Shown here piece by piece: positions 40,082 through 63,833 of a stretch of 64,000 bases of DNA. Numbering within the stretch: the first letter of the stretch is position 1; every line of letters begins with the position of its first letter. The stretch spans positions 124,001 to 188,000 of the forward strand of contig NZ_SHKO01000005.1 of assembly GCF_004217095.1 (NCBI RefSeq), in the 5' to 3' direction. Origin of the DNA: Advenella incenata. GTDB taxonomy: Bacteria > Pseudomonadota > Gammaproteobacteria > Burkholderiales > Burkholderiaceae_B. The notes under the pieces were generated by a model. That model was not told the DNA's origin. It saw only the letters and a program-made list of their open reading frames with translations, and ran no database searches. The translations under genes and the position numbers were made by a program.

Positions 40082-41287
40082 ATGACGACAAAACAACCGC
40101 AGAGCGCCATTATTGTAGGTGGTGGCATCGGTGGCCTTGCGGCCGCTTTGGCTCTGACCCGTCAAGGCATTCAAGTGCAATTGCTGGAGCAGGCTTCACA
40201 GATTGGTGAAATCGGCGCCGGCATCCAATTGGGGCCCAATGCCTTTTCCGCACTTGATGCACTGGGTGTGGGCGAAACAGCCAGGCAATGCGCCGTATTT
40301 ACCGATCACATCATTATGATGGACGCAGTCGACAACACCGAGATTTTGCGTGTCCAGACGGGTCAGGCGTTCCGCGAGCGTTTCAACGGCCCTTATGCGG
40401 TGATTCACCGGGCCGACATCCACGGCGCCATTCTAAACGGGGTCCGGAACGACCCGCTGATCTCGTTTCAAACATCCACGCAAATCAAGACCTTCACCCA
40501 GACAGACGAATACGCCCAGGTGACGGACGCAGCGGGCCACGTTTTCCAGGCTGATGTCGTTATAGGCTGTGACGGCGTTAAATCCGTGCTGCGTGATCAC
40601 CTTATCGGTGACACCACGCGTGTGACCGGACATGTGGTTTACCGTGCTGTAGTAGACAAAGAGAACATGCCTGACGACCTGCGTATCAATGCGCCGGTAC
40701 TCTGGGCAGGACCCCGCTGCCACCTCGTGCACTACCCGTTGCGTGGCGGCGAGCAATACAATCTGGTGGTCACCTTTCACAGTCGACAACAGGAAGAATG
40801 GGGCGCGCGTGATGGCAGCCAGGAAGAAGTGCTTTCCTATTTCGAAGGCATACATGAACGCCCCAGGCAATTACTCGATCTGCCAAACTCCTGGCGTCGC
40901 TGGGCTACTGCGGACCGCGAGCCGGTCCAGCACTGGAGCGTTGGGCGGGCAACCCTTTTGGGCGACGCGGCACACCCCATGTCGCAGTACATGGCTCAGG
41001 GCGCGTGCATGGCACTTGAAGACGCCGTCACACTTGGCTTGTCCATTGAGCAATGCCACGGGGACCTGCCTGCAGCCTTCAGGCTATACGAGTCGTTGCG
41101 CATACCACGCAGTGCCCGTGTCGTCTGGTCCACGCGCGAGATGGGGCGAATCTATCATGCAGCAGGTGTAGAGCGGGCCGTTCGAAACTCGCTTTGGAAA
41201 GACACGCCGCAATCTCGTTTCTATGACAACCTGCAGTGGTTATACGGATGGAATGCACAAAACTGCATGCAGGGCTATCGGCTTTGA
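40082..41287 (+). CDS. 3-Hydroxybenzoate 6-monooxygenase (FAD-dependent)
   Basis: 401 residues of the class A flavin monooxygenases: GGGIGGLAAALAL near the start, IGCDGVKSVLRDHL in the middle and [22 protein letters not shown] near the end. The sequence resembles 3-hydroxybenzoate 6-hydroxylases (MhbM/XlnD type), which make gentisate with NADH and O2. AGGAGACA precedes the start. The next enzyme genes are gentisate dioxygenase, fumarylpyruvate hydrolase and maleylpyruvate isomerase, which fits. Salicylate 5-hydroxylase is a multicomponent enzyme and is excluded; a salicylate-type flavin hydroxylase is the main alternative. Confidence 0.85.
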   Translation: MTTKQPQSAIIVGGGIGGLAAALALTRQGIQVQLLEQASQIGEIGAGIQLGPNAFSALDALGVGETARQCAVFTDHIIMMDAVDNTEILRVQTGQAFRERFNGPYAVIHRADIHGAILNGVRNDPLISFQTSTQIKTFTQTDEYAQVTDAAGHVFQADVVIGCDGVKSVLRDHLIGDTTRVTGHVVYRAVVDKENMPDDLRINAPVLWAGPRCHLVHYPLRGGEQYNLVVTFHSRQQEEWGARDGSQEEVLSYFEGIHERPRQLLDLPNSWRRWATADREPVQHWSVGRATLLGDAAHPMSQYMAQGACMALEDAVTLGLSIEQCHGDLPAAFRLYESLRIPRSARVVWSTREMGRIYHAAGVERAVRNSLWKDTPQSRFYDNLQWLYGWNAQNCMQGYRL

Positions 41288-41328
41288 CGGCTACCGTCAA
41301 AAAATAAAAATACTCCAGGAGACAAACC

Positions 41329-42315
41329 ATGTTTTTTCGCAAACGCCGTACCCTGATGGCAGGCGCGCTTGCCATCAGTTGCCTGACCAGCACTGCATGG
41401 GCGCAGGCCTCCGATTACCCTCAAAAAACCGTCACGCTGTACACCGCATTTTCCATCGGCAGCGGTCCTGACGTGGTGCTACGTATCCTGAGCCAAGAGC
41501 TTGGCAAGAAGTGGAAACAGCCAGTGGTAGTTGAAAACCGCCCTGGCGGCGGTGGCTTCATTGCATTGGAGGCAGTCAGCAAACGTAAGCCTGATGGCTA
41601 TTCCCTGCTACAGCTCGATAGCGAACATATTTCGGCGCTCCCGCATTTATACAAGGCCCGCCACTATTTCCCGCTGGAGAAATTTGATCTGGTCGCACCC
41701 TTGTTTTACACACCATTCATGATAGCCGTCAGTGAAAAATCCCCCTGGAAAAACCTGACCGAGCTGATCGACGCGGCTAAAAAGCGCCCCGACAGCGTCA
41801 CTTATGGGTCCTGGTTTGTCGGCAGTCCTGGTCATTTGGGTGGGGAATGGCTGAGCTCGCTGACAAACAGCAAGATGCTGCACATTCCCTACAAGGAAGT
41901 AAGCCAATTGTACACAGCGGTAGCCAACGCAGAAGTGGACTGGGCGTTTGGCACCATCCCGTCCACCCGACCGGTATACGACAGCGGCAAACTTCGCTAC
42001 CTCGCCATTGCCGCCCCCCAACGCCACAGCCTGTATCCCAATGTGCCCACCGTCGCGCAGGCCGGTGGACCTGCACAACTGGACGTCAATTCGATCGTAT
42101 CGCTTGTCGCACCCAAGGGTCTGCCGGTAGAAATACGTGACAAGATCCACGCCGATATTTCAGAGATCCTGCGTGACCCCGAGGTGCGCAAGCGCTTTGA
42201 TTCCTTTGCCTTCGAGCCGTTGAGCTGGACGCTGACCCAATTGCGCGAACGCCTTGACCAAAAATCGGCCACGTACAAAGACCTGATAGACAGTGCCAAC
42301 ATCAGTTTGGATTAA
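41329..42315 (+). CDS. Bug-family receptor within the gentisate operon
   Basis: 328 residues with signal peptide (RRTLMAGALAISCLTSTAWAQA), then DYPQKTVTLYTAFSIGSGPDVVLRILSQELG, a variant of the usual PGGxxD loop in which the Pro-Gly-Gly is replaced by Ser-Ile-Gly-Ser-Gly. VVENRPGGGGFIALE and YPNVPTVAQAGGP are family-typical. Its place between the hydroxylase and the dioxygenase suggests 3-hydroxybenzoate or gentisate as ligand. AGGAGACA precedes the start. Confidence 0.88.
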   Translation: MFFRKRRTLMAGALAISCLTSTAWAQASDYPQKTVTLYTAFSIGSGPDVVLRILSQELGKKWKQPVVVENRPGGGGFIALEAVSKRKPDGYSLLQLDSEHISALPHLYKARHYFPLEKFDLVAPLFYTPFMIAVSEKSPWKNLTELIDAAKKRPDSVTYGSWFVGSPGHLGGEWLSSLTNSKMLHIPYKEVSQLYTAVANAEVDWAFGTIPSTRPVYDSGKLRYLAIAAPQRHSLYPNVPTVAQAGGPAQLDVNSIVSLVAPKGLPVEIRDKIHADISEILRDPEVRKRFDSFAFEPLSWTLTQLRERLDQKSATYKDLIDSANISLD

Positions 42316-42334
42316 ACATATAGGAACCATTGCC

Positions 42335-43468
42335 ATGAGCGTGATTAATGCCATTCCCTCGCCTGTCCGGTTAACTGCCATCGCCTCCCCCGGCCAACCG
42401 GAGCCAACCCCAGAACTGGAACAGCTATACCGCGGTTTTGAGCGCGAGATGCTGGTGCCATTGTGGACAGAAATTGGTGACCTGATGCCGATGCATCCGA
42501 AAAGCAAGGCCAGCGCCCACGTTTGGCGTTGGGATCGGCTGGTGCAACTGGCCAACGAAGCAGGCCGTATCGTACCGGTAGGCCGAGGCGGAGAACGCCG
42601 TGCCATTGCGCTGGCCAACCCCGCGCTTGGCGGGCGCCCCTTTGCCACACCCACGCTTTGGGCGGCCATCCAGTACCTGATGCCTGGCGAAGATGCGCCC
42701 GAACATCGCCATACCCAGCACGCCTTTCGGTTCATCGTAGAAGGCGAAGGCGTCTGGACCGTGGTCAATGGCGATTCTGTGCGTATGTCGCGTGGCGACT
42801 TTCTGCCGCAAGGCGGCTGGAACTGGCACGCCCACCATAACGCGTCGATCGAGCCAATGGCCTGGATTGACGGTTTGGACATCCCTTTTTCCTCCTACAC
42901 GGAATCGCAGTTCTTCGAAGTCGGGCGCGACAAGCTCGATCCTCAGGAGTATATCAAGCCAGCCAGGTCGCGCTCCGAACGCCTTTGGGCCCATCCGGGC
43001 TTGCGCCCTGTATCGCAACAGGCAGATCAGGCCGCCACCCCATTGCTGGCCTACCGCTGGGAGGACACGGACCGCGCACTGAGCGAACAGCTCGCACTGG
43101 AAGATGAGGGCTACAGCGCCACGCTAAGCCCAGGCCATGCAGCCGTGCGCTACACCAATCCAATGAATGGCCGTGACGTGCTTCCCACCATTCGCTGTGA
43201 GATGCATCGCATACGCAGCGGCGCACATACTCGAACCAAACGCGAAGTCGGCTCATCTGTGATCCAGGTATTTGATGGGCAGGGAAGTGTCACCGTCGGC
43301 GAGCACCAATGGGAGGTAAAGCGTGGCGACATGTTTGTTATACCCTCGTGGCAGCCTTTCACCGCCATCTGTGCTGCAGACCATGCATCGCTGGACCTTT
43401 TCCGCTTCAGCGATACCCCTATTGTTGAAGCCGTCCATGCCTATCGTGAACAGTTCGATACGCCCTGA
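42335..43468 (+). CDS. Gentisate 1,2-dioxygenase
   Basis: 377 residues from the ATG at 42335, which has AGGA about 9 nt upstream; an earlier start at 42293 overlaps the Bug gene. It is a bicupin. The first cupin holds the iron ligands in [19 protein letters not shown] with a later [10 protein letters not shown]; the second ([25 protein letters not shown]) lacks the same His set. It cleaves gentisate to maleylpyruvate with O2. Neighbouring genes continue the pathway to fumarate and pyruvate. Confidence 0.92.
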
Positions 43469-43560
43469 CGTGCCGGGCTCGAAGCCCTCATGTCCTGCTC
43501 ACTTTCGCTTTCACCATCCCAGACTTCTGGGCTGTATGCTTATTTCAAATCGGAAACACC

Positions 43561-44268
43561 ATGACTACAGTCAATTATCTTTGGACACCCCGTCCCGCAC
43601 AAACCCTGCCCATAGTGGGCACTGAACAGCACTTGCCGATCAACCGTCTGTTTTTTGTGGGGCGAAACTATCACGCCCATGCCGCTGAGATGGGCAAACC
43701 CGTAGACAAGAGCACAGAGCGCCCTTTCTACTTTACCAAAAGTGCGCAAACCCTGACACTGTCAGGCGCTACCGTCCCATATCCACCGGAAACCAGCAAC
43801 TACCATTTTGAAATGGAACTGGTCGTCGCCATTGGCAAAGCAGGGTTCCGTATTTCTGCGGACCAGGCACATGAGAGCATCTATGGCTATGCCTGCGGCC
43901 TGGACATGACCCGCCGGGACCTGCAACTGGTCGCGCGCGATAAGGGACGACCTTGGGACCTGGGTAAAGACGTGGAAAATTCAGCCATTGCATCACCAAT
44001 TCTGCCAATGCCGGGCAAGGTAATAGAGCAAGGCGCCATTGAGCTATCGGTAAACGGCGCAGTCAAGCAACGTTCCAATATCGACAAGCTGATCTGGAAT
44101 ATCCGTGAAATCATTGCAGATCTGTCCCTGTTCTACCACTTGCAGCCGGGCGACCTGATTTACACAGGCACCCCGGAAGGCGTCGGTGCCGTCGTGCCCG
44201 GCGACAAGATAACCGGCCGCGTGCAAGGCGTGGGTGATATTGAATTGAACGTAGGCCAGCCCGCATAA
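43561..44268 (+). CDS. Fumarylpyruvate hydrolase (FAH family)
   Basis: 235 residues with the fumarylacetoacetase fold: [17 protein letters not shown], the metal-site acidic residues in [24 protein letters not shown] and the C-terminal [20 protein letters not shown]. It hydrolyses fumarylpyruvate to fumarate and pyruvate, ending the gentisate pathway; this corresponds to NagK/MhbH. The ribosome site is weak. It is followed 37 nt later by the isomerase gene. Confidence 0.92.
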
Positions 44269-44305
44269 CGCGTTGCAGGATCGGTAAAGAAAAGCAGGAA
44301 TAAAC

Positions 44306-44944
44306 ATGAAACTTTACAGCTTTTTCCGCAGCGGAACATCTCATCGCTTGCGCATTGCGCTCAACCTCAAGGGACTCGCGCCGGACTATATACCGGTGGA
44401 TCTCCGCGTGGACGAACAATCCGAAGGCCCGTACAAGGCCATCAACCCGCAGGGACTGGTCCCCGCCCTTACCATGGATGACGGCAGAACGCTGATTCAG
44501 TCTACCGCCATTATCGAATGGCTGGAGGAGCGTTACCCCGAGCCGGCGCTGTTGCCAAAAGACCCTGAGGCACGCGCCCATGTGCGTGCGCTGGCTGCCA
44601 TTGTCGGCTGCGACGTACACCCTATCAATAACCGCCGTATCCTGCAGTATCTGCGCAAAAATTTCAGCGGCGACGACACGGCCATAGACGCCTGGTGCGG
44701 CCATTGGATAAGCGCTGGCTTTGATGCCATAGAGACGTTATTGGCAAAGGATCGGAATCGCCAGGGATTTTGCTTCGGCAACGCACCCTCCATTGCCGAT
44801 GTTTATTTGATTCCTCAGATAGAAAGCGCCCGTCGTTTTAATGTCGATATGACTCAATGGCCATTGATCTGTGCTGTTGAAAAAGCCTGCAGTGCACTGC
44901 CCGCTTTTGCAAAGGCAGAACCCATGGCGCAGCCTGATGCCTGA
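44306..44944 (+). CDS. Maleylpyruvate isomerase (zeta-class GST)
   Basis: 212 residues. The N-terminal glutathione domain reads LYSFFRSGTSHRLRIALNLKGL, with the zeta-class SGTSHR motif, and the substrate region has NPQGLVPALTMDDG and QSTAIIEWLEERYP; the C-terminal half is the helical GST domain. It isomerises maleylpyruvate to fumarylpyruvate with glutathione. Maleylacetoacetate isomerase is the close alternative, but the operon points to gentisate. AGGA precedes the ATG. Confidence 0.92.
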   Translation: MKLYSFFRSGTSHRLRIALNLKGLAPDYIPVDLRVDEQSEGPYKAINPQGLVPALTMDDGRTLIQSTAIIEWLEERYPEPALLPKDPEARAHVRALAAIVGCDVHPINNRRILQYLRKNFSGDDTAIDAWCGHWISAGFDAIETLLAKDRNRQGFCFGNAPSIADVYLIPQIESARRFNVDMTQWPLICAVEKACSALPAFAKAEPMAQPDA

Positions 44945-52939: not shown

Positions 52940-53563
52940 CTAGCCCAGGCCAAGCAGACGCATGGCCTGCTCGCGATCGGCCACTGTCGCGTACTTCTGT
53001 TTCATATCGAACAGGTTTGCCTCGTGCGGCGCCAGTGCCCTGTCGCCGACACAATCGGCAACGACCAACGGGCGAAAGCCCAGTTGCATGGCATCGACCA
53101 CCGAGGCGCGTACGCAACCGCTGGTGACTGCGCCGGCGACCAGCAGGGTTTTGACACCGCGCTGCGTCAGCCAGGCTGCCAGCGACGTACCGAAAAAGGC
53201 CGATGGCACATTCTTGCGTACGATCAGCTCTCCCTGAACCGGCGTCAGTTGCGGCACAATCTGGCTATTGGGTTCGTTTTCCAGTAAGCCCAGCATGCCG
53301 GGAACCTTGATACTGAAAATATTATTGTCAGCACCATCGTCCGCGTACACAATGCGTGTGTGCGCCACGGGCCAGCCCTGTTCGCGTGCCGTTTGCAGCA
53401 GTTTTTCCGTATTGTCTATCGCCTGGGCAATATTGCCGCCGCCAAAGACCTTGGGATCGGCAAAGCCGTTGACCAGGTCGATAATCAACAGGCCATAGGG
53501 CGCCACCGGCTCCAGCTCGGCGCCAAAGCCCTGCTGCTCATAGACTGCGTCTGCCTTACTCAT
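52940..53563 (-). CDS. nicF: Maleamate amidohydrolase NicF
   Basis: 207 residues from the ATG at 53563; the open frame back to 53731 is antisense noise over nicX. It is an isochorismatase-fold enzyme with catalytic Asp29 (IIDLVNGF), Lys117 (IVRKNVPSAFFGT) and Cys150 (AGAVTSGCVRASVVDAM). It hydrolyses maleamate to maleate and ammonia, late in nicotinate degradation. It overlaps the nicX end by 8 nt and is the last gene of the minus-strand nic operon. Confidence 0.9.
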   Translation of the reverse strand: MSKADAVYEQQGFGAELEPVAPYGLLIIDLVNGFADPKVFGGGNIAQAIDNTEKLLQTAREQGWPVAHTRIVYADDGADNNIFSIKVPGMLGLLENEPNSQIVPQLTPVQGELIVRKNVPSAFFGTSLAAWLTQRGVKTLLVAGAVTSGCVRASVVDAMQLGFRPLVVADCVGDRALAPHEANLFDMKQKYATVADREQAMRLLGLG

Positions 53564-54602
53564 GTGCGCCCCCGTCCAGAACCTTGCCATCACGCACGAC
53601 ATCCACGCCATCCAGTTTGACCGTGCAGTGACGCAAGGGAATATCAATATGACATGCCGTGGTTCGGCTGCCGCCTGCTTCATTATTGGGCCCCAGAGAA
53701 AACAGGAAATTGCCTTCGAACGCGCGTGCATCCATGCCTATTGTGTTTTCCCTGTCGTACAGACCCAGCGTGGACCAATAGGCACGTGGTTGCAGCCCCC
53801 AGCCGATATGGGAAATGGCATAGCCTTCCGGGTCGTTGAATGACTTCATGTACTCGTCCAGCAACTGAGCATCAATGCCGCCATCTATACGGGTGGCATA
53901 ACCATTTTCGACTGTCAGGGTAATGGGTTCGGCAACATATTTTTTCTGCGGCAATAAGATATCGCCTTTATCAATCACGATACGTCCTGTCGCCCCGCCT
54001 TCGTTGGGCCAGGTCAGGGTAAAGCCGCTGGGCCAGTGGTCCCAGCGCCCGGGCTCGTCCACATAACCATACTCGCTGATGGCCGGAAATTCACCCAGGG
54101 GGCAGCGCAAATCGGTGCCGGCCTCAGAAGTGATATGCATTTGTTTTGATTTGGCAATCAGCGCAGAGGCCGCTTTGACCCGCTTTCGGTCCGCTTCGAT
54201 AGGCACTGTACGAACCAGAATTTCCGGCGGTTCCACGGCCAGCAGGATTTTGGTGCCGCTTTCAAGAATTTCATGTTGTTCCGGTGAAAACAGCAATGTC
54301 ATCAGATCCAGCACAAGATCACTGGCCTTGAGCGCGGCAATGGCCGCCTTGTTCCCGGTCAGTGGAGTGGTGCCCAGATACGCCAGCGCATCCCTGCTTA
54401 ATGCCTTTTCAGCATTGACCGGCGGCAGATCCAGCCGGTTGACAATGGCGCCTTTGGATTGCGCTGCAATGGTTGCGCATAACAGCGTTTGCGGATGCGT
54501 TGACATACTGGTCAGGATCGTAACAGTCTGCCCGGCCTCAAGATTGGACAGCGTCAATACCTTCTGCCATGCCTCGATAAGTTGATAATCGCTTACAGCC
54601 AT
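53556..54602 (-). CDS. nicX: 2,5-Dihydroxypyridine 5,6-dioxygenase NicX
   Basis: 348 residues from the ATG at 54602, with AGGA 5 nt upstream; an ATG four codons earlier is less likely. This is the M29-peptidase-like iron dioxygenase family; the C-terminal part has SEAGTDLRCPLGEFP and the ligand-bearing HIGWGLQPRAYW and GGSRTTACHIDIPLRHCTVKLDG segments. It cleaves 2,5-dihydroxypyridine to N-formylmaleamate. Flanked by nicD and nicF in pathway order. Confidence 0.93.
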   Translation of the reverse strand: MAVSDYQLIEAWQKVLTLSNLEAGQTVTILTSMSTHPQTLLCATIAAQSKGAIVNRLDLPPVNAEKALSRDALAYLGTTPLTGNKAAIAALKASDLVLDLMTLLFSPEQHEILESGTKILLAVEPPEILVRTVPIEADRKRVKAASALIAKSKQMHITSEAGTDLRCPLGEFPAISEYGYVDEPGRWDHWPSGFTLTWPNEGGATGRIVIDKGDILLPQKKYVAEPITLTVENGYATRIDGGIDAQLLDEYMKSFNDPEGYAISHIGWGLQPRAYWSTLGLYDRENTIGMDARAFEGNFLFSLGPNNEAGGSRTTACHIDIPLRHCTVKLDGVDVVRDGKVLDGGAHE

Positions 54603-54662
54603 AATAGTCCTCATGAAAGTGCTCTGCTGCGGGCAGCCACCCGCAGCGCCGGTACGACAGTC

Positions 54663-55508: not shown

Positions 55509-57791
55509 TTACATCCCGGCCAGCACAGGCGTTGCGCCATTAATGCTGGCCAGTTGCAGCGCCTCGCGCACTGCCTGTGGTGTAAACGGCGCCTGGTAAA
55601 AGCGCAAGCCGCAGGCATCAAACAAGGCATTGGCCACGGCCGATGCACAGGGCACCGAGGCCGACTCGCCTGCGCCCATGGGCGGTTCATCCTGCCTGTC
55701 CATCAATACGACATCAATAGGTGGAATGGCCGTAAAGTCAATAATCTTGTATGCGCCCCACTCTGCCTGTACGGTGCCGTTGGCATCGAAACTGACCTGT
55801 TCATACAGGGCGCGGCTGAGCGCCTGGATCACATTGCCATGCAATTGGTGGCGTACCCCCGCAGGATTGACCATTTGTCCGGTGTCCTGGCCAACCACGA
55901 TATGGTTCAACCGGATCTCGCCCGTACGTGCATTGACGCTGATATCTGCAATCCATGCCGACCAGGCCGCGCCAAAGCCGGGAAATTTGGAATGTATATA
56001 GCGGGCGTAAGAGACGCCCCGCCCGTGCAGCCACCCTTGCGCATCGGGCGCCCCGCGGCTACCGGGCTTGCCGGGTTGCCAGTGCGCCCGCTCGCCCACA
56101 GCCAGCAGCAATTGCTGGGCGCGCTCGTCGGCCGCCAGGTTTTTTACCCGAAACGCCAGCGGATCGACTTGTGCTTCGAACGCCAGCTCATCTATAAAGC
56201 AGTCATGGGCAAATGAATTGGGTAGCGCCGAGACCCCGCGAAGCCAGGAGGCGCGCACAATGGTCGCCATATCGTTGCAGACGATTTTCTGGCTTGGATA
56301 GCCATAAGGCGGCACCGCAGTGCGATCACCCATTTGCAGGCTGCGCGGCAACGCCGGCTCTTTGCCGGTAAGCAACAACGCCAGGAGCGGCCCATCGTTT
56401 GACGGGTAATGCGTGGTGAAGTCGTAATGCCGCAAATTGCCTTGTGCATCAATCGAGCCCTGCACATCCATCAACTGCGCAGCGCCCTTGGGTTCCCAGC
56501 CATGTTCCTGCTCGCGGCTCAATTGCACACGAACCGGCACACCGGCATGCTGTGAAAGAAGGAGCGCGTCGGCACAAACGTCATCGGCACAATTGCGGCC
56601 ATAGCAGCCGGCCGCCTGCAGACGAATTATTTCTATGTGTTCTTCATCAAGGCCACTGAGCTGGCTAAGATGCACTCTCAACATATGGGGGTTTTGCGAA
56701 CCGGACCAGACTCTGACATGTCCAGGCTGGTAATCTGCGACCGCGCATGAAGGCCCGATGGAGGCATGCATCTGGTAAGGCCAGACATAGGTTCGTTTGA
56801 TATCGACCCTGGCGTCAGGCAGATCGGAGTGGTCGCTACGGTTATCCTGCAGAATACGTTCGCTCATGGCCTGACGTCGAATGGCCGCTTCCAGATCCTG
56901 AAGGTCTTCCAGCGGTGCAACAGGCTTCCAGGTCACCTTGAGCTCACGTGCCGCGCGGATCGCATGCTCTTCGCGGCGCGCCGCCACACCGACAAAATCG
57001 CCCTGCACGATCACTTTGATGTCAGGACAGATATGATCTACGCTAGCGGTATCCACACAAACCAGGCTGTGGCCGATAAAGGCGCCCGTATCTCGTCCGA
57101 CATAGGGAGGCCGTACGACCCGGCCATGCCACATGCCTGGAACCCGCATATCATGGACATAGACAAACTGGCCCAGTGCCTTGGCGGGGATATCCACGCG
57201 GGGCTGGGAGTGACCCACAATTTTCAGGTCTTTGGCTGCCTTGGTCTGAACGTCGTCCTGCAGGTATTGGCGATATTGCTTTCCCGCCAGCAACGTCCAA
57301 TAATCAATGGCGTGACCTTGCGCAGAAGATATCCGGCCGTCCTGAACAAACAAATGCGCCGCATCAACATTCCACATGCCGGCAGCCAAATCCACTAGAA
57401 TATGACGGGCCTGGGCAGCGGCCTGGCGCAAGGGCCGGGCTGTGATCTGGATGGATGCACTGGCAATGGTGGGACCCTGATTGGGCGAAGCATCTGTGTG
57501 GCCCAGCACCATCTGCACGGCAGACATCGGCACATCCAGCTCATCGGCCACAATTTGCGCCAGCGCGGTCTGAATGCCGGTACCCAGGTCAACGTGGCCG
57601 CAAAAGGCCCGGACCCAACCCTGCTCGGATACAGCAACGAACACATCGTCATAATCCTGCAGATACACAGACACCACCCCGGGCTGCCCCGGGGCAGGCG
57701 CAGGCGGCACAACCGGCGCACGCAGCACCAGCAGGGTGCCAGTAGACTCCAGGAGCGATTGTTGCTCGGTACGAGGTGCCATATACGTCAT
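55509..57791 (-). CDS. nicB: Nicotinate dehydrogenase molybdopterin subunit (intact Mo domain)
   Basis: 760 residues from the ATG at 57791 (GGA about 9 nt upstream); a TTG at 57824 and an ATG at 57782 are alternatives. It is a xanthine-oxidase-family molybdenum subunit: CGHVDLGTGIQTALAQIVADEL (about 64-85), GHTDASPNQGPTIASASI, AAGCYGRNCADDVCADA, GWGxSYARYIH-like LHGRGVSYARY and the catalytic Glu709 in GAGESASVP. It should hydroxylate nicotinate at C6. In P. putida, NicB is one long protein with cytochrome c domains fused; here the cytochrome part is a separate gene on the opposite strand. It heads the minus-strand operon nicB-nicD-nicX-nicF. Confidence 0.88.
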   Translation of the reverse strand: MTYMAPRTEQQSLLESTGTLLVLRAPVVPPAPAPGQPGVVSVYLQDYDDVFVAVSEQGWVRAFCGHVDLGTGIQTALAQIVADELDVPMSAVQMVLGHTDASPNQGPTIASASIQITARPLRQAAAQARHILVDLAAGMWNVDAAHLFVQDGRISSAQGHAIDYWTLLAGKQYRQYLQDDVQTKAAKDLKIVGHSQPRVDIPAKALGQFVYVHDMRVPGMWHGRVVRPPYVGRDTGAFIGHSLVCVDTASVDHICPDIKVIVQGDFVGVAARREEHAIRAARELKVTWKPVAPLEDLQDLEAAIRRQAMSERILQDNRSDHSDLPDARVDIKRTYVWPYQMHASIGPSCAVADYQPGHVRVWSGSQNPHMLRVHLSQLSGLDEEHIEIIRLQAAGCYGRNCADDVCADALLLSQHAGVPVRVQLSREQEHGWEPKGAAQLMDVQGSIDAQGNLRHYDFTTHYPSNDGPLLALLLTGKEPALPRSLQMGDRTAVPPYGYPSQKIVCNDMATIVRASWLRGVSALPNSFAHDCFIDELAFEAQVDPLAFRVKNLAADERAQQLLLAVGERAHWQPGKPGSRGAPDAQGWLHGRGVSYARYIHSKFPGFGAAWSAWIADISVNARTGEIRLNHIVVGQDTGQMVNPAGVRHQLHGNVIQALSRALYEQVSFDANGTVQAEWGAYKIIDFTAIPPIDVVLMDRQDEPPMGAGESASVPCASAVANALFDACGLRFYQAPFTPQAVREALQLASINGATPVLAGM

Positions 57792-57837
57792 TAACGGTAT
57801 CCGGTTCAGGCGTGTGTTGGACAAGAAGATTAACTAA

Positions 57838-58038
57838 AGTGTACACGCTATATTAAAATGATCAAACACCAAAAGCACATCTTCTAAAAAATGAAAATAG
57901 ATCTGCAGTTTGCAGTGTAAACTCTGGTTATGCTAAGAAAATACTAGTAAAAACCCGCAGAATGACGAGTTGATACACTCTTGTTCATTTTCATGAAATT
58001 CTTTGTTTGCTGAAAAAATTAAAGTGTGTAAACTTATT
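57838..58038. promoter_or_regulatory. Divergent nicB/nicA control region with repeated GTGTAMAC-like sites
   Basis: Between the divergent nicB and nicA starts lie several copies of one motif: AAGTGTACACGCT at 57837, AGTGTAAACTCT at 57914-57925, TACACTCTT at 57974-57982 and AAGTGTGTAAACTTATT at 58022-58038. The same core forms a 22-bp palindrome upstream of nicC. They are the best candidates for NicR operators. The region has no gene and is AT-rich. Confidence 0.6.
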
Positions 58039-58066
58039 ATTAGTTGACACACTGTACGCCCTGAAC

Positions 58067-58546
58067 ATGAATCCTATTGCCCCCCGCCCATTCGCCCTAT
58101 CGGTCAATAACGAACAACACAACGTGACCGTTGAGTCCGATACCCCGCTGCTTTACGTATTGCGCAATGACCTGGCCTTAAATGGCCCGAAGTTCGGTTG
58201 CGGGCTCGGCGAATGCGGCGCCTGTACGGTATTGGTGGATGGCGTAGCGGCGCGCGCCTGCGTCATACCAGTCAGCGTTATAGAAAATCGCAAGGTCACG
58301 ACCCTTGAAGGGCTCACCGAAAATGGCCAGCCCAATAAGGTCCAGCAGGCCTTTATTGATAACCAGGCTGCGCAATGCGGCTATTGCCTCAACGGCATGA
58401 TCATGACAGTACAGGCACTATTGAACCGCAATCCCAATCCCTCGGAAGCACAAATTCGTAACGAACTGCGTCACAACTTGTGCCGTTGCGGCACCCATGT
58501 AGAAATCATGGCGGCCGCAATCGCAGCGGCCCGGGGGCGACCATGA
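58067..58546 (+). CDS. nicA: Nicotinate dehydrogenase small [2Fe-2S] subunit NicA
   Basis: 159 residues from the ATG at 58067; the frame opens at 58007 but the extra residues are in the operator region. The plant-type cluster is in KFGCGLGECGACTVLVDG, with a further Cys in RACV, and the second cluster cysteines are in QCGYCLNGMIM and LCRCGTHVEI. NicA passes electrons from the molybdenum site. It overlaps the cytochrome gene by ATGA. Confidence 0.95.
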   Translation: MNPIAPRPFALSVNNEQHNVTVESDTPLLYVLRNDLALNGPKFGCGLGECGACTVLVDGVAARACVIPVSVIENRKVTTLEGLTENGQPNKVQQAFIDNQAAQCGYCLNGMIMTVQALLNRNPNPSEAQIRNELRHNLCRCGTHVEIMAAAIAAARGRP

Positions 58547-61416
58547 CCATGGACCTGACCGCTCCCACCGCTACCGACATAAGTCACACGCCAGAGGACA
58601 GCGCCGGCGTTGACCTGTCCATACCAACCGACAGCCAATTGCTGCATGGCGTTGTATTGCGTCCGCCCCATTGGGAACTGGGCATACAAACAAACCGGAT
58701 TGCGCAGTTGCAGTCGCTCGACAGCGATCGGGCAGCCAACGTGCCAGGCGTAGTCAATTGCATCGCACGCGGCAGCTTTGTCGGCGTTGTCGCCGTACAG
58801 CGCACGCAGGCGCAGCAGGCTTGTGCCTTGCTGCACGCCACCTGGGTGACGCCTGTTGCTGCAGGCGCCGATGTGCAACCCTTAACACACCAGACAGCCA
58901 CGCCAGGCACGATCCATTCGGCAACCGGGTATGAATGGAATAACCACCTGGCCGCCGACGCACCGGATTGGGCTATCGCATGGCACCGGGACGATCAACT
59001 CACAGTGTGGGTCAATACCAATCGTCAGCCGGCCCTCAGGCAGGAACTGAGCGCACTACTGGGGCTGGTACCCGAAGCGGTCCAGATTGTGCAACATGGC
59101 CAGCACACACAGGACGGGCTGGAGACCGCCGTCGAAGCCGCGCTGTTGGCCTGGGATTTACACCAACCGGTACGCGTACAAGCAGCCTACGCACCTGCCG
59201 CATTAGCGGTCAAAGTCGAGCAGAACGCCCAGGCGGCAAGCCAACACCTTACAGACCGGGAGCAATGGAGCATCAACGCGCTTGACCCACGCCGTGCGTC
59301 CATCGCCGGCCGCTTATGCGGACTGGACTCGACCTCGGCCACAGGGATGGCACTGCTTACGGAATATGCCAGCGCCCCCGTTCAAAAAAGCGGCAGCAGC
59401 CTGGTGGCCACGGACCCCTACAGCTATACAGCCGCCACGGTGTTTGCACAGGAATCGCATTTCGATGAATATTGCGAAAACCGTCAACTGGATCCGGTAC
59501 AGACCCGTCTGGCACAAATCAACAGCGAGCGCGGGCACCAACTGTTAAAAAGCGTTGCCCAACAAAGCGGCTGGGATCAGGCAGCATCCGGCCCGGCGGC
59601 CAAGGCTGCCGGGCTTGGCCGTGGCATTGCCTATAGTCATATTATTGATAACGACAGGAATCCTCCGCAGGAAGTATGGTCGGTCTGGTCGGTAGAGCTG
59701 GCCGTGGATGCGCGCAGCGGCAGCCTGGCCGTTAGCAAGCTGACAGTGGGACATGATGCAAGCCATAACGAGAGCGCACCGCCCAGCACCCCGGAAACCC
59801 AGCGCCTGCTGAAAGACCGCCTGGGCAAGTGGACGCAATCCCTGTTGGGGCAACAGACCCAACAAGGCGCCAATAGCCATTCTGAACAAGACAAACAGCG
59901 CCCGTTGGCGCTGCCCGAGGTACAGGTCATCAATAGCGCCCGCTCGCTGGATCAACCGCTGGCCTGGGGTCCGGGCGTTGAGCTGCCAGCAGCGGCTGCC
60001 ATTGCCAATGCGATATACAGCGCAACCGGACTGCGTATTCGCGAAACGCCATTTGCATTGCCCACCCTGTCGCTGGAGCCGCCGCCGACAGCAAAACGCA
60101 GCCGACGCTGGCGCAACAGCTGGCTGGGCGGGCTGATGGCTGCCGCGACCGGCGCCCTGGTGGTTGCCGCCCCCTGGCGCACCAGCATTCCACCCGTTGC
60201 CCGGGTCGATACTTCTATTTTTTCCGCGCAGGCGATTGAGCGTGGCCGGCTTGTCGCGCTTACCGGAGATTGCATGGTCTGCCACACGGCGCCGGGCGGC
60301 CAGACCAATGCCGGCGGCCTGGGGCTGGATACGCCTTTTGGCACCATCTTCACCACCAATATTACACCCGACCGGGAAACCGGCATTGGCGCCTGGTCAT
60401 ATAAAGCGTTCGAGCGCGCCATGCGCGAAGGCATCCATCGCGACGGCAAGCATTTATACCCGGCATTTCCCTACACCGCCTACGCAAAAATGTCCGACGA
60501 GGATTTGCAATCGCTTTATGCCTACCTGATGACCCGCCCTGCTGTCTCGGCGCCCAATCAGGAAACCCGCCTGCCCTTTCCAATGAACCTGCGCCCCCTG
60601 GTAGCGGGATGGAATGCCCTGTTTCATCGGGACCGGCAAGCCTACGCGCCAAATCCGGAAAAGAGCCCGCTTTGGAACCGTGGCGCCTACCTGGTAAATA
60701 GTAGCGGACACTGCGCTGCCTGTCATTCACCTCGCAATGCACTGGGCGCTGAAAAATCCGGAGAAAACAACTTTCTGGCTGGGGGTTTCGCCGACAACTG
60801 GGAAGCCCCGGCGCTCAACAAACTGTCGTCCTCGCCCATTGCCTGGACCGAGCAGGAGCTATTCCAGTATTTGCGCACGGGCTACTCCCCCTTGCATGGC
60901 GTTGCCGCCGGCCCGATGGGGCCCGTTGTTGCAGGGCTGGCGCAACTGCCAGAATCCGATGTCCAGGCCATGGCTCATTACCTGGCCAGCCTGAATCCAG
61001 CAGCAGCCGAATCGACGCACAACCCGGCCGTGTTGGCAGCCAGACTGGAGGCAGACAGCCAGGCGAACCAGGAGGCACGACTGCTGCCCGGCGAGACCTT
61101 ATTTAATGGCGCCTGTGCGGTGTGCCACGATTCGGGCAGCGGCCCGGTTCTGTTCGGCGCACGCCCCTCGCTGGCACTCAATAGCAATCTACATAGCGAC
61201 CATCCTGATAACGTCATTCAGGTTTTGATGCACGGCATAACCCGCCCGGCCCAGGCAAACCTGAGCACGATGCCTGGCTTCAAAAACAGCATGAATGACG
61301 CGCAAATGGAATCACTATTGCAGTACATGCGCACGCGCTTTGCACCGGACAAGCCCGCCTGGAACAATCTGCGTAAAAAAATCGCCGAGATCAGGCAGCA
61401 ACAGGGGCATCCATAA
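58543..61416 (+). CDS. Nicotinate dehydrogenase triheme cytochrome subunit with degenerate Mo-like domain
   Basis: 957 residues from the ATG at 58543, coupled to nicA. Residues 1-510 align by eye with the second half of the NicB molybdenum domain (LLHGVVLRPPHWELG, GSFVGVVAVQR, QLTVWVNTNRQPALRQEL, PLAWGPGVELPAAAAIANAI) but lack the CGHVDLGTG loop, the GCYG motif and the catalytic Glu, where GAGE reads GPGV. A membrane helix follows (527-546), then three c-type hemes at CMVCH 577-581, CAACH 724-728 and CAVCH 858-862. It should carry electrons from NicA to the respiratory chain. The Mo-like part may be a scaffold. Confidence 0.85.
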   Translation: MTMDLTAPTATDISHTPEDSAGVDLSIPTDSQLLHGVVLRPPHWELGIQTNRIAQLQSLDSDRAANVPGVVNCIARGSFVGVVAVQRTQAQQACALLHATWVTPVAAGADVQPLTHQTATPGTIHSATGYEWNNHLAADAPDWAIAWHRDDQLTVWVNTNRQPALRQELSALLGLVPEAVQIVQHGQHTQDGLETAVEAALLAWDLHQPVRVQAAYAPAALAVKVEQNAQAASQHLTDREQWSINALDPRRASIAGRLCGLDSTSATGMALLTEYASAPVQKSGSSLVATDPYSYTAATVFAQESHFDEYCENRQLDPVQTRLAQINSERGHQLLKSVAQQSGWDQAASGPAAKAAGLGRGIAYSHIIDNDRNPPQEVWSVWSVELAVDARSGSLAVSKLTVGHDASHNESAPPSTPETQRLLKDRLGKWTQSLLGQQTQQGANSHSEQDKQRPLALPEVQVINSARSLDQPLAWGPGVELPAAAAIANAIYSATGLRIRETPFALPTLSLEPPPTAKRSRRWRNSWLGGLMAAATGALVVAAPWRTSIPPVARVDTSIFSAQAIERGRLVALTGDCMVCHTAPGGQTNAGGLGLDTPFGTIFTTNITPDRETGIGAWSYKAFERAMREGIHRDGKHLYPAFPYTAYAKMSDEDLQSLYAYLMTRPAVSAPNQETRLPFPMNLRPLVAGWNALFHRDRQAYAPNPEKSPLWNRGAYLVNSSGHCAACHSPRNALGAEKSGENNFLAGGFADNWEAPALNKLSSSPIAWTEQELFQYLRTGYSPLHGVAAGPMGPVVAGLAQLPESDVQAMAHYLASLNPAAAESTHNPAVLAARLEADSQANQEARLLPGETLFNGACAVCHDSGSGPVLFGARPSLALNSNLHSDHPDNVIQVLMHGITRPAQANLSTMPGFKNSMNDAQMESLLQYMRTRFAPDKPAWNNLRKKIAEIRQQQGHP

Positions 61417-61602: not shown

Positions 61603-62085
61603 CTATTCGCCCTCAAGGCCGCTGGCGTTCATTTTTTGCAATAGATACAAAATAGCGACCTGTTCGGCCGGGTTTAGCTGCCCCATGGTGAGCCGGCTGA
61701 TTTCCTGTGCGCGAGGAATCGTGCGAGACAGCAGCGCCTGCCCTTCGGTGGTCAGGCTGGCAATCACCTTGCGCTTGTCCAGCTTTCCTGGCGAGAGCGC
61801 AATCAGGCCGCGCGCCTTCAAACGATTGATAATCCCGCGAATGGTTGCCTGATCGATCGCCGTGGCCTCTACCAACTCGGCCTGGGAACTGCGCCCACGA
61901 TCACGCAAGGCGCACAAGGTAACAAACTGAATGGCCGTCAACTGGTCATCGCCCACATTCTGCTGAAAAATGGCCGTATGACGCTGTACCGCCTTGCGCA
62001 ATAAGTGTCCAACCTGCTGGGTGACATCATACGGCGCGCGGCAAGGCCCTGCTTCTGTTTCAGGTTGCTCGTGTTTTCTGGACAT
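61603..62085 (-). CDS. nicR: MarR-family regulator NicR (BpsR-like)
   Basis: 160 residues with a MarR winged helix: RGRSSQAELVEATAIDQATIRGIINRLKARGLIALSPGKLDKRKVIASLTTEGQALL. Position between the nic dehydrogenase and nicC, divergent from nicC, matches NicR of P. putida and BpsR of Bordetella, both repressors relieved by 6-hydroxynicotinate. Convergent with the cytochrome gene. Ribosome site is weak. Confidence 0.86.
   Translation of the reverse strand: MSRKHEQPETEAGPCRAPYDVTQQVGHLLRKAVQRHTAIFQQNVGDDQLTAIQFVTLCALRDRGRSSQAELVEATAIDQATIRGIINRLKARGLIALSPGKLDKRKVIASLTTEGQALLSRTIPRAQEISRLTMGQLNPAEQVAILYLLQKMNASGLEGE

Positions 62086-63833
<1,748 letters not shown>

Follow-up and report, generated by a model that had tools for sequence, protein, structure and literature searches.

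A conserved, apparently dead copy of the molybdenum subunit in the cytochrome subunit of three-part nicotinate dehydrogenases

Introduction

In Pseudomonas putida, the molybdenum (Mo) part of nicotinate dehydrogenase and its cytochrome are fused in one protein, NicB. The present analysis concerns a locus of Advenella incenata, lying in a 64,000-nucleotide stretch of its genome (contig NZ_SHKO01000005.1, positions 124,001 to 188,000 of the forward strand; hereafter the window, whose own numbering is used for all positions), where the Mo subunit (NicB1), the [2Fe-2S] subunit (NicA) and the cytochrome subunit (NicB2) have separate genes, and where the first half of NicB2 is itself Mo-like. Why does the cytochrome subunit carry this second Mo-like part, termed here the pseudo-Mo domain, when a live Mo subunit is made as a separate protein? 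An initial annotation of the locus took it for a decayed Mo domain that may act as a docking scaffold. We find that its observation is right, and more general than one locus: in many bacteria that feed on vitamin B3, the enzyme that begins its breakdown has, besides the separate live Mo part, a copy of that part that is conserved but apparently dead and belongs to the membrane cytochrome.

Results

NicB2 carries a truncated Mo-subunit copy that lacks the cofactor site

The features on which the argument rests are as follows.

55509–57791, minus strand: NicB1, intact Mo (molybdopterin-binding) subunit, 760 amino acids from the ATG (motifs, Pfam, structure match)
58067–58546, plus strand: NicA, subunit with two [2Fe-2S] clusters, 159 amino acids (Pfam Fer2_2 E 7.9e-27, Fer2 E 2.9e-6)
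58543–61416, plus strand: NicB2, pseudo-Mo domain, anchor helix and triheme cytochrome c, 957 amino acids
58612–60057, plus strand: pseudo-Mo domain, NicB2 residues 24–505, homologous to NicB1 225–748 (alignment, AlphaFold2 models, Foldseek)
59971–59973, plus strand: codon at the alignment position of the catalytic Glu (E723 of NicB1 in frame numbering), Pro477 in NicB2
60109–60168, plus strand: anchor helix, NicB2 residues 523–542, positively charged on its N-terminal side (model helix, flank charges)
60187–61398, plus strand: triheme cytochrome c domain, NicB2 residues 549–952
60271–60285, plus strand: heme site 1, CMVCH (NicB2 577)
60712–60726, plus strand: heme site 2, CAACH (NicB2 724)
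61114–61128, plus strand: heme site 3, CAVCH (NicB2 858)

A re-reading bore out the genes for proteins of 760, 159 and 957 residues, and their coordinates, as first called; the open frame of nicB1 extends to 57824, beyond the ATG start, and the start of nicB2 overlaps the stop of nicA as ATGA. The minus-strand protein is the intact Mo subunit that the initial annotation had seen in it: NicB1 has the GHVDLGTG, GCYGRN and GAGE motifs and both MoCoBD domains of a catalytic Mo subunit, and belongs to the permuted type of the xanthine oxidase family, with the first half of MoCoBD_2 at the N-terminus (Pfam). Its best solved relative is 8gy3_C (E 4.4e-48). Likewise, the second half of NicB2 is a triheme membrane cytochrome c, as had been claimed, with CxxCH at residues 577, 724 and 858 and a match to 8gy3_A, the cytochrome subunit of the Gluconobacter aldehyde dehydrogenase (E 2e-108). 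Genes for a 2Fe-2S subunit, a Mo subunit and a triheme cytochrome lie together here in a nicotinate-type cluster, and the locus is, on gene content, that of a three-part nicotinate dehydrogenase, with nicotinate 6-hydroxylation as its predicted activity.

The first half of NicB2 is homologous to NicB1 (blastp of NicB2 24–504 against NicB1 225–747: 120 bits, 24% identity), which was the best non-self match of the pseudo-Mo domain in a search of the whole genome (E 4.1e-22; two others at E 0.015 and 0.020). The homology proposed at the outset is therefore real, but it covers about the last two thirds of NicB1 rather than the second half of the Mo domain. Pfam MoCoBD_1 scores 16.1 bits on the domain, under its 27-bit cut-off, which may explain why annotation does not flag it, and MoCoBD_2 was not listed at E 1.

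Nothing remains of the N-terminal cofactor module. Since the pseudo-Mo rows of our motif alignment (45, against 50 intact rows, those of the Mo proteins of loci L041, L060 and L095 being partial) were trimmed to the domain, this point was judged on 63 whole pseudo-Mo frames, none of which matched an intact Mo profile before position 219; the GHVDLGTG module is accordingly absent. The CGHVDLGTG loop is thus indeed lacking from NicB2, not by decay of the loop alone, but because the whole N-terminal stretch of about 220 residues that carries it is gone. Within the part that is present, the loss of GCYG also holds: its Cys and Tyr occur in 0 of 45 pseudo-Mo rows versus 50 of 50 intact rows, as does W530, and the RASWLRG motif is lost as well. 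The reported change of GAGE to GPGV is seen where PMGAGESASVP of NicB1 aligns with PLAWGPGVELP of NicB2, placing a Pro at the position of the catalytic Glu. This Glu723 is kept in 1 of 45 pseudo-Mo rows versus 49 of 50 intact rows, and the sole pseudo-Mo row that has it (L050) reads WNEKARW, with no GxGE context. In a scan of a genome collection that confirmed 577 loci, of which 80 were kept (hereafter the named loci), the GCYG Cys and Tyr and the catalytic Glu were found in 0 of 17 pseudo-Mo proteins versus 63 of 63 fused ones. A remnant of the GCYG segment persists in Halomonas and Vreelandella (TGLGRHCGDDAA and SGLGRHCGDDAA, versus AGCYGRNCADDVC), consistent with decay from a live site through an apparent intermediate.

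In these alignments NicB2 was homologous to the Mo domain and kept no full cofactor site, the two points on which the initial annotation depended. We conclude from sequence comparison that the pseudo-Mo domain is a truncated, apparently dead copy of the Mo subunit that lacks the cofactor site, and that NicB2 does not unite a live Mo domain and a cytochrome in one chain, as a fused NicB does. The enzyme of Alcaligenes faecalis JQ135 has been described (PMC6403243, in the part of the text available, where a genome paper is cited) by a phrase that speaks of 'two molybdenum-containing' subunits, which would agree with a catalytic role for NicB2 too. Such a second Mo subunit is very improbable. We reject it because none of the 63 frames has the N-terminal cofactor module and because the catalytic residues (Cys and Tyr of GCYG, and the Glu) are gone; in addition, MoCoBD_1 stays below its cut-off and MoCoBD_2 is unlisted.

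The pseudo-Mo domain is conserved under purifying selection

The ratio of non-synonymous to synonymous substitution rates (dN/dS) of the pseudo-Mo domain is 0.07–0.30 in 11 close pairs (the pair at 0.07 having a saturated dS), compared with 0.04–0.21 for NicB1 (10 measurable pairs) and 0.01–0.10 for the cytochrome. On these estimates the domain is under purifying selection, which, combined with the loss of its catalytic residues, marks it as a pseudoenzyme. At 53 positions the consensus residue of intact Mo proteins is found in at least 85% of the 45 pseudo-Mo rows, and 17 further positions are conserved with another residue (e.g. R251, S253). The Mo-type match covers nearly the entire domain in 45 of 45 pseudo-Mo frames, which come from Burkholderiales and Halomonadaceae. 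Intact Mo proteins have 167 invariant columns; at 62 of these, at least half of the pseudo-Mo rows retain the residue, unevenly along the chain (NicB1 225–330, 16/30; 330–440, 14/40; 440–540, 3/34; 540–610, 12/15; 610–665, 6/18; 665–720, 2/15; 720–757, 9/15).

These data bear on the possibility that the domain is the remnant of a fused NicB in the course of decay, which has no function itself and persists only because its deletion would upset the start or the membrane insertion of the cytochrome. The domain does evolve faster than its neighbours, at 105 of the 167 formerly invariant columns fewer than half of the rows have the original residue, and the GCYG remnant of Halomonas and Vreelandella looks like a stage of such decay. 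The low dN/dS in all 11 pairs, the two sets of conserved positions and the near-complete span of the match in every frame argue the other way; a free relic is disfavoured by selection and conservation, and we regard this explanation as unlikely.

The positions conserved with a residue that intact proteins do not have, such as R251 and S253, might instead point to a domain that binds substrate, product or a maturation factor, a module for regulation or assembly and not for docking. The GCYG and RASWLRG motifs are lost, and the pattern of export signals and gene architecture described below points to tethering; we give such a module only a small chance.

Structure prediction with AlphaFold2 gave a predicted local distance difference test score (pLDDT) of 78.2 for full-length NicB2, and for the pseudo-Mo domain alone a pLDDT of 74.6 and a predicted template modelling score (pTM) of 0.69. 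A Foldseek search with the domain model returned 92 PDB matches at E 0.001, and the 50 listed were all Mo proteins of the xanthine oxidase family, the best among those listed being 8gy3_C (E 4.9e-20). Together with the sequence homology, the model suggests that the domain keeps the Mo-subunit fold over the part that is present.

The pseudo-Mo domain accompanies a separate live Mo gene and excludes the fused form

Of the 80 named loci, 17 encode a pseudo-Mo cytochrome, and the other 63 have a live Mo domain and the cytochrome in one fused protein; the one-protein NicB with which the initial annotation had compared the locus is thereby found in Pseudomonas and others. Named holders of the pseudo-Mo domain include Advenella, Alcaligenes, Bordetella ansorpii, Achromobacter, Cupriavidus, Herbaspirillum, Paracidovorax, Halomonas and Vreelandella.

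When all classified loci are considered, 63 have a pseudo-Mo domain (some genomes having been entered twice, e.g. L040/L096 and L062/L101, so that these loci and the 58 anchor proteins below hold duplicates). A separate live Mo gene lies in the fetched stretch in 60 of the 63, so that the two partners of the proposed live and dead pair are encoded close together. The remaining three have a Mo frame cut at the stretch end (L138), a Mo match on another contig (L059) or a contig of 7.7 kb (L137). A fused live form stands beside the pseudo-Mo domain in 0 of 63 loci, and none of the fused loci has a separate Mo gene at a 550-bit threshold. Gene content thus shows that the pseudo-Mo domain and a separate live Mo gene co-occur, and that this pair and the fused live form are mutually exclusive.

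In wider searches, a threshold of E 1e-5 gave matches in 116 of 250 genomes of the window's family, with intact and fused Mo proteins counted in, and across the class 3 of 369 genomes matched at E 1e-10, one of them being the genome of the window. A plasmid search gave 33 matching records, none with 80% coverage and thus no good pseudo-Mo relative.

Some relatives show unusual gene structures. One genome of another genus (G191) has two copies of nicB2 and nicB1 about 45 kb apart with equal scores (C1 3060726–3062300 and 3105976–3107550). Three loci, L041 (genome G178), L044 (G138) and L060 (G092), have frame breaks in the gene for the Mo subunit, in that for NicB2 or in both, and in two of them the break lies near the junction of pseudo-Mo domain and cytochrome, from sequencing error, decay or, for L044, a natural split. 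A free cytochrome is unlikely in G178, where its frame does not open until within the anchor; in G138 a TTG stands upstream of the anchor, and the break may be a natural split.

Tat signals are absent where the cytochrome has a predicted cytoplasmic head

The flank on the N-terminal side of the anchor is more positive than that on the C-terminal side in all 58 pseudo-Mo proteins that were measured out of 62, and in 65 of 67 fused proteins, so that the pseudo-Mo head should be cytoplasmic. NicB1 itself has no twin-arginine translocation (Tat) signal. This absence can be set in context by a third build of the system, in which a Mo subunit and a plain cytochrome are encoded by separate genes and there is no pseudo-Mo domain. 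The Mo subunit carries a Tat signal in 14 of 14 cases with a plain separate cytochrome, versus 0 of 52 partners of a pseudo-Mo cytochrome and 0 of 71 fused proteins. Identical Mo rows were counted once, and eight rows without a partner in view were left out; five of these had the signal by our criterion and three did not (L214, NicB1-like; L217, with a twin arginine (RR) by eye; L224, on a cut contig, also with RR by eye). On a tree of 45 rows chosen from 145, plus two outgroups, the Tat signal changes twice, each time together with gene architecture. The link between absence of Tat and a predicted cytoplasmic head on the cytochrome is, at the level of sequence patterns, a new correlation.

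Would the enzyme not work more simply in the periplasm? c-type hemes are attached there, and if NicA and NicB1 were exported by another route, with an anchor that does not hold the pseudo-Mo domain in the cytoplasm, the enzyme would be on the same side as its hemes and electron transfer would pose no difficulty; a few NicB1 and fused N-termini do keep an RR pair (L098, L150, L155, L173). Both the distribution of Tat signals and the positive N-terminal flank of every anchor measured speak against this arrangement, which we judge improbable. In those four proteins the RR is kept without a full hydrophobic core, as if a Tat signal had decayed in place.

Three further loci (L088, L089, L091) have NicA, NicB2 and Mo genes consecutively in the same direction with overlapping open frames. 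Their Mo subunits, encoded directly after the pseudo-Mo cytochrome, lack Tat and group with Tat-bearing ones (100/99), an apparent partner swap in which the Mo subunit belongs to another clade, one whose other members bear Tat.

A Tat signal is also present in two less closely related Mo proteins that the Advenella genome encodes elsewhere (L084, L085). The former (L084:7683–10415 on contig C5, about 5.7 kb past the window end) is a 748-residue Mo subunit with a clear Tat signal and a 2Fe-2S partner; by eye, the pair lies near an AraC-type regulator, and no cytochrome of the NicB2 kind was found in the 17-kb stretch.

Phylogeny leaves two possible sources for the pseudo-Mo domain

A tree of Mo proteins groups 19 NicB1 sequences in one clade (98/96), next to 24 fused ones (95/93), with the Mo proteins of L088 and L089 outside the NicB1 clade. 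The pseudo-Mo rows form a single clade (100/100) on long branches. Approximately unbiased (AU) tests rejected none of three placements: pseudo-Mo with NicB1 (p 0.451), pseudo-Mo with fused proteins (p 0.215) and NicB1 with fused proteins (p 0.184). The source of the domain may therefore be a fused ancestor or a duplicate of NicB1; descent from a fused ancestor, on which the loss of a covalent link supposed by the initial annotation would depend, is a placement that the trees allow but do not single out. In the cytochrome tree, the pseudo-Mo proteins are not one clade: five changes are needed, two of them forced by starred branches, and the Halomonas group stands apart from the group of Cupriavidus and Oxalobacteraceae. 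This tree argues either against one simple origin or in favour of exchange of genes; judging from the Mo-like part, a single origin of the pseudo-Mo domain is likely but not certain.

The surroundings fit a nicotinate cluster

The neighbouring genes include the following.

52940–53731, minus strand: isochorismatase-fold hydrolase, NicF-like by position (E 5.6e-43; putative name from cluster context, start approximate)
61603–62085, minus strand: MarR-family regulator, NicR/BpsR-like by position (MarR_2 E 5.9e-9; putative name from cluster context)
62676–63833, plus strand: flavin adenine dinucleotide (FAD) monooxygenase, NicC-like by position (FAD_binding_3 E 1.1e-28; putative name from cluster context)

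Alpha/beta hydrolases are also among the neighbours of nicB1-nicA-nicB2, and a Pfam search of the NicX-like gene at 53556–54614 gave zero matches. By family and position, these surroundings fit a nicotinate (nic) cluster, with the gene names as predictions. Elsewhere in the window (40082–44944), open reading frames resemble by eye a salicylate/gentisate-like cluster (FAD hydroxylase, cupin dioxygenase, fumarylacetoacetase-like and glutathione S-transferase-like proteins).

Discussion

A proposed cytoplasmic dock as the best explanation

To the question raised by the locus, we lean with modest confidence towards the following answer as the best explanation: the pseudo-Mo domain would be a cytoplasmic dock that ties unexported NicA and NicB1 to the membrane cytochrome. 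NicB1, as the only Mo site, would hydroxylate nicotinate, and electrons would pass to the two [2Fe-2S] clusters of NicA, while NicB2 would supply three c-type hemes and the membrane anchor. NicB1 and NicA, having no export signal, would stay in the cytoplasm, and, since the anchor that follows it is predicted to have its N-terminal end facing inwards, the pseudo-Mo domain would lie on that side too. There it may bind NicB1 and/or NicA, possibly by imitating one half of a Mo-subunit dimer, and would achieve without a covalent link what a fused NicB achieves with one. An exported Mo subunit would meet a periplasmic cytochrome directly; with an unexported one, the cytochrome would need a head on the inside, either a live Mo domain, as in fused NicB, or a dead one to which the live protein binds. 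The Tat correlation thus gives a reason for the dock that goes beyond the argument of the initial annotation.

Several points weigh against this dock. With NicA in the cytoplasm and hemes in the periplasm, electrons would have to cross the membrane in some way, a difficulty shared with the fused enzymes. The dN/dS of the pseudo-Mo domain is, pair by pair, about 1.4–3.4 times that of NicB1, so that the constraint is loose. The match of the domain model to 8gy3_C has a TM-score of 0.54 (by query length) and a root-mean-square deviation of 8.8, the full-length model has a pTM of 0.49 and does not fix the placement of the domains, and of the 47 rows from which the models were built, 29 are fused live Mo proteins, which may steer the models to a Mo fold, so that the fold evidence is not independent of those proteins. 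The anchor is weakly hydrophobic (Kyte-Doolittle (KD) values of 1.13–2.26 in pseudo-Mo proteins versus 2.55–3.13 in three plain cytochromes). As for the export signals, the Tat criterion was fixed after some sequences had been seen, seven of the 14 Tat cases with a plain cytochrome come from one genus (L204–L210), and two independent transitions are too few for a test and do not distinguish gain from loss. Finally, genomes G017 and G091 hold both Tat-bearing and pseudo-Mo systems, so that the Tat-bearing enzymes may act on other substrates.

A wider and more tentative proposal is that this class of Mo hydroxylases moved from the periplasm to the cytoplasm, Tat being lost each time the cytochrome gained a cytoplasmic head, live and fused or dead. 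The dead copy might then serve as a reusable dock, even for a Mo subunit of another clade (L088, L089, L091), and electrons would go from cytoplasmic Fe-S clusters to periplasmic hemes by a route that has not been described.

The dead domain calls for a new reading of the tripartite nicotinate dehydrogenases of Alcaligenes, Achromobacter, Bordetella and Cupriavidus: they would have one Mo site, not two, and a dead paralogue built into the electron-transfer subunit. The link between Tat and a cytoplasmic head makes the membrane side of catalysis and the electron route to the periplasmic hemes testable, and where such enzymes are expressed for production of 6-hydroxynicotinate, the NicB2 head may be needed.

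Comparison with known systems

Among kinases and proteases, pseudoenzymes that have been conserved are a familiar finding; we are aware of no published case in the xanthine oxidase family. The word pseudoenzyme was likewise absent among the matches listed, in their available parts, in a literature search on molybdopterin proteins of that family. The split itself is already in print: the available parts of published accounts name NicA, NicB1 and NicB2 in Burkholderia gladioli and Bordetella (PMC10269826) and nicB1 and nicB2 in Delftia (PMC4572682), so that the new point is the dead domain. Neither description mentions, in those parts, a dead Mo-like domain in NicB2. The same holds for the accessible portions of a 2023 review of the three-gene NdhS/NdhL/NdhM enzyme (PMC10331938) and of accounts of the Bordetella pathway (PMC6837509, PMC10142695). 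A comparison of 30 Alcaligenes strains found the nicotinic acid cluster conserved in all of them (PMC6403243, from the part available). In the literature found on nicotinate dehydrogenase, as far as its texts were accessible, no dead Mo domain is described; the original papers on the nic genes of P. putida (Jimenez 2008) and Bordetella (Brickman 2018) and on strain JQ135 may mention one.

The tripartite enzymes of Bordetella, B. gladioli and Delftia share the split of the Advenella enzyme, those of B. gladioli and Delftia by published naming only, in partly available sources. The loci of Bordetella ansorpii (L101), Achromobacter, Alcaligenes and Cupriavidus have the same build as that of Advenella. 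NicAB enzymes with a fused NicB (Pseudomonas type) have a NicA, a Mo domain of the sister clade and the same kind of anchor and triheme cytochrome; they differ in bearing a live Mo domain before the anchor, where NicB2 has a truncated dead copy and the live Mo subunit is a separate protein. The membrane-bound aldehyde dehydrogenase of Gluconobacter oxydans (8gy3) resembles the present enzyme in its chain A, the closest match of the cytochrome half of NicB2, and its chain C, the closest match of both NicB1 and the pseudo-Mo half among the structures listed; its plain cytochrome subunit, of about 440 residues, is too short to hold a pseudo-Mo domain. Two different polypeptides of Mo fold are also present in the nicotinate dehydrogenase of Eubacterium barkeri (3hrd, chains A and B). 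There the two chains jointly build one live site, whereas here NicB1 alone has all the motifs and NicB2 has none.

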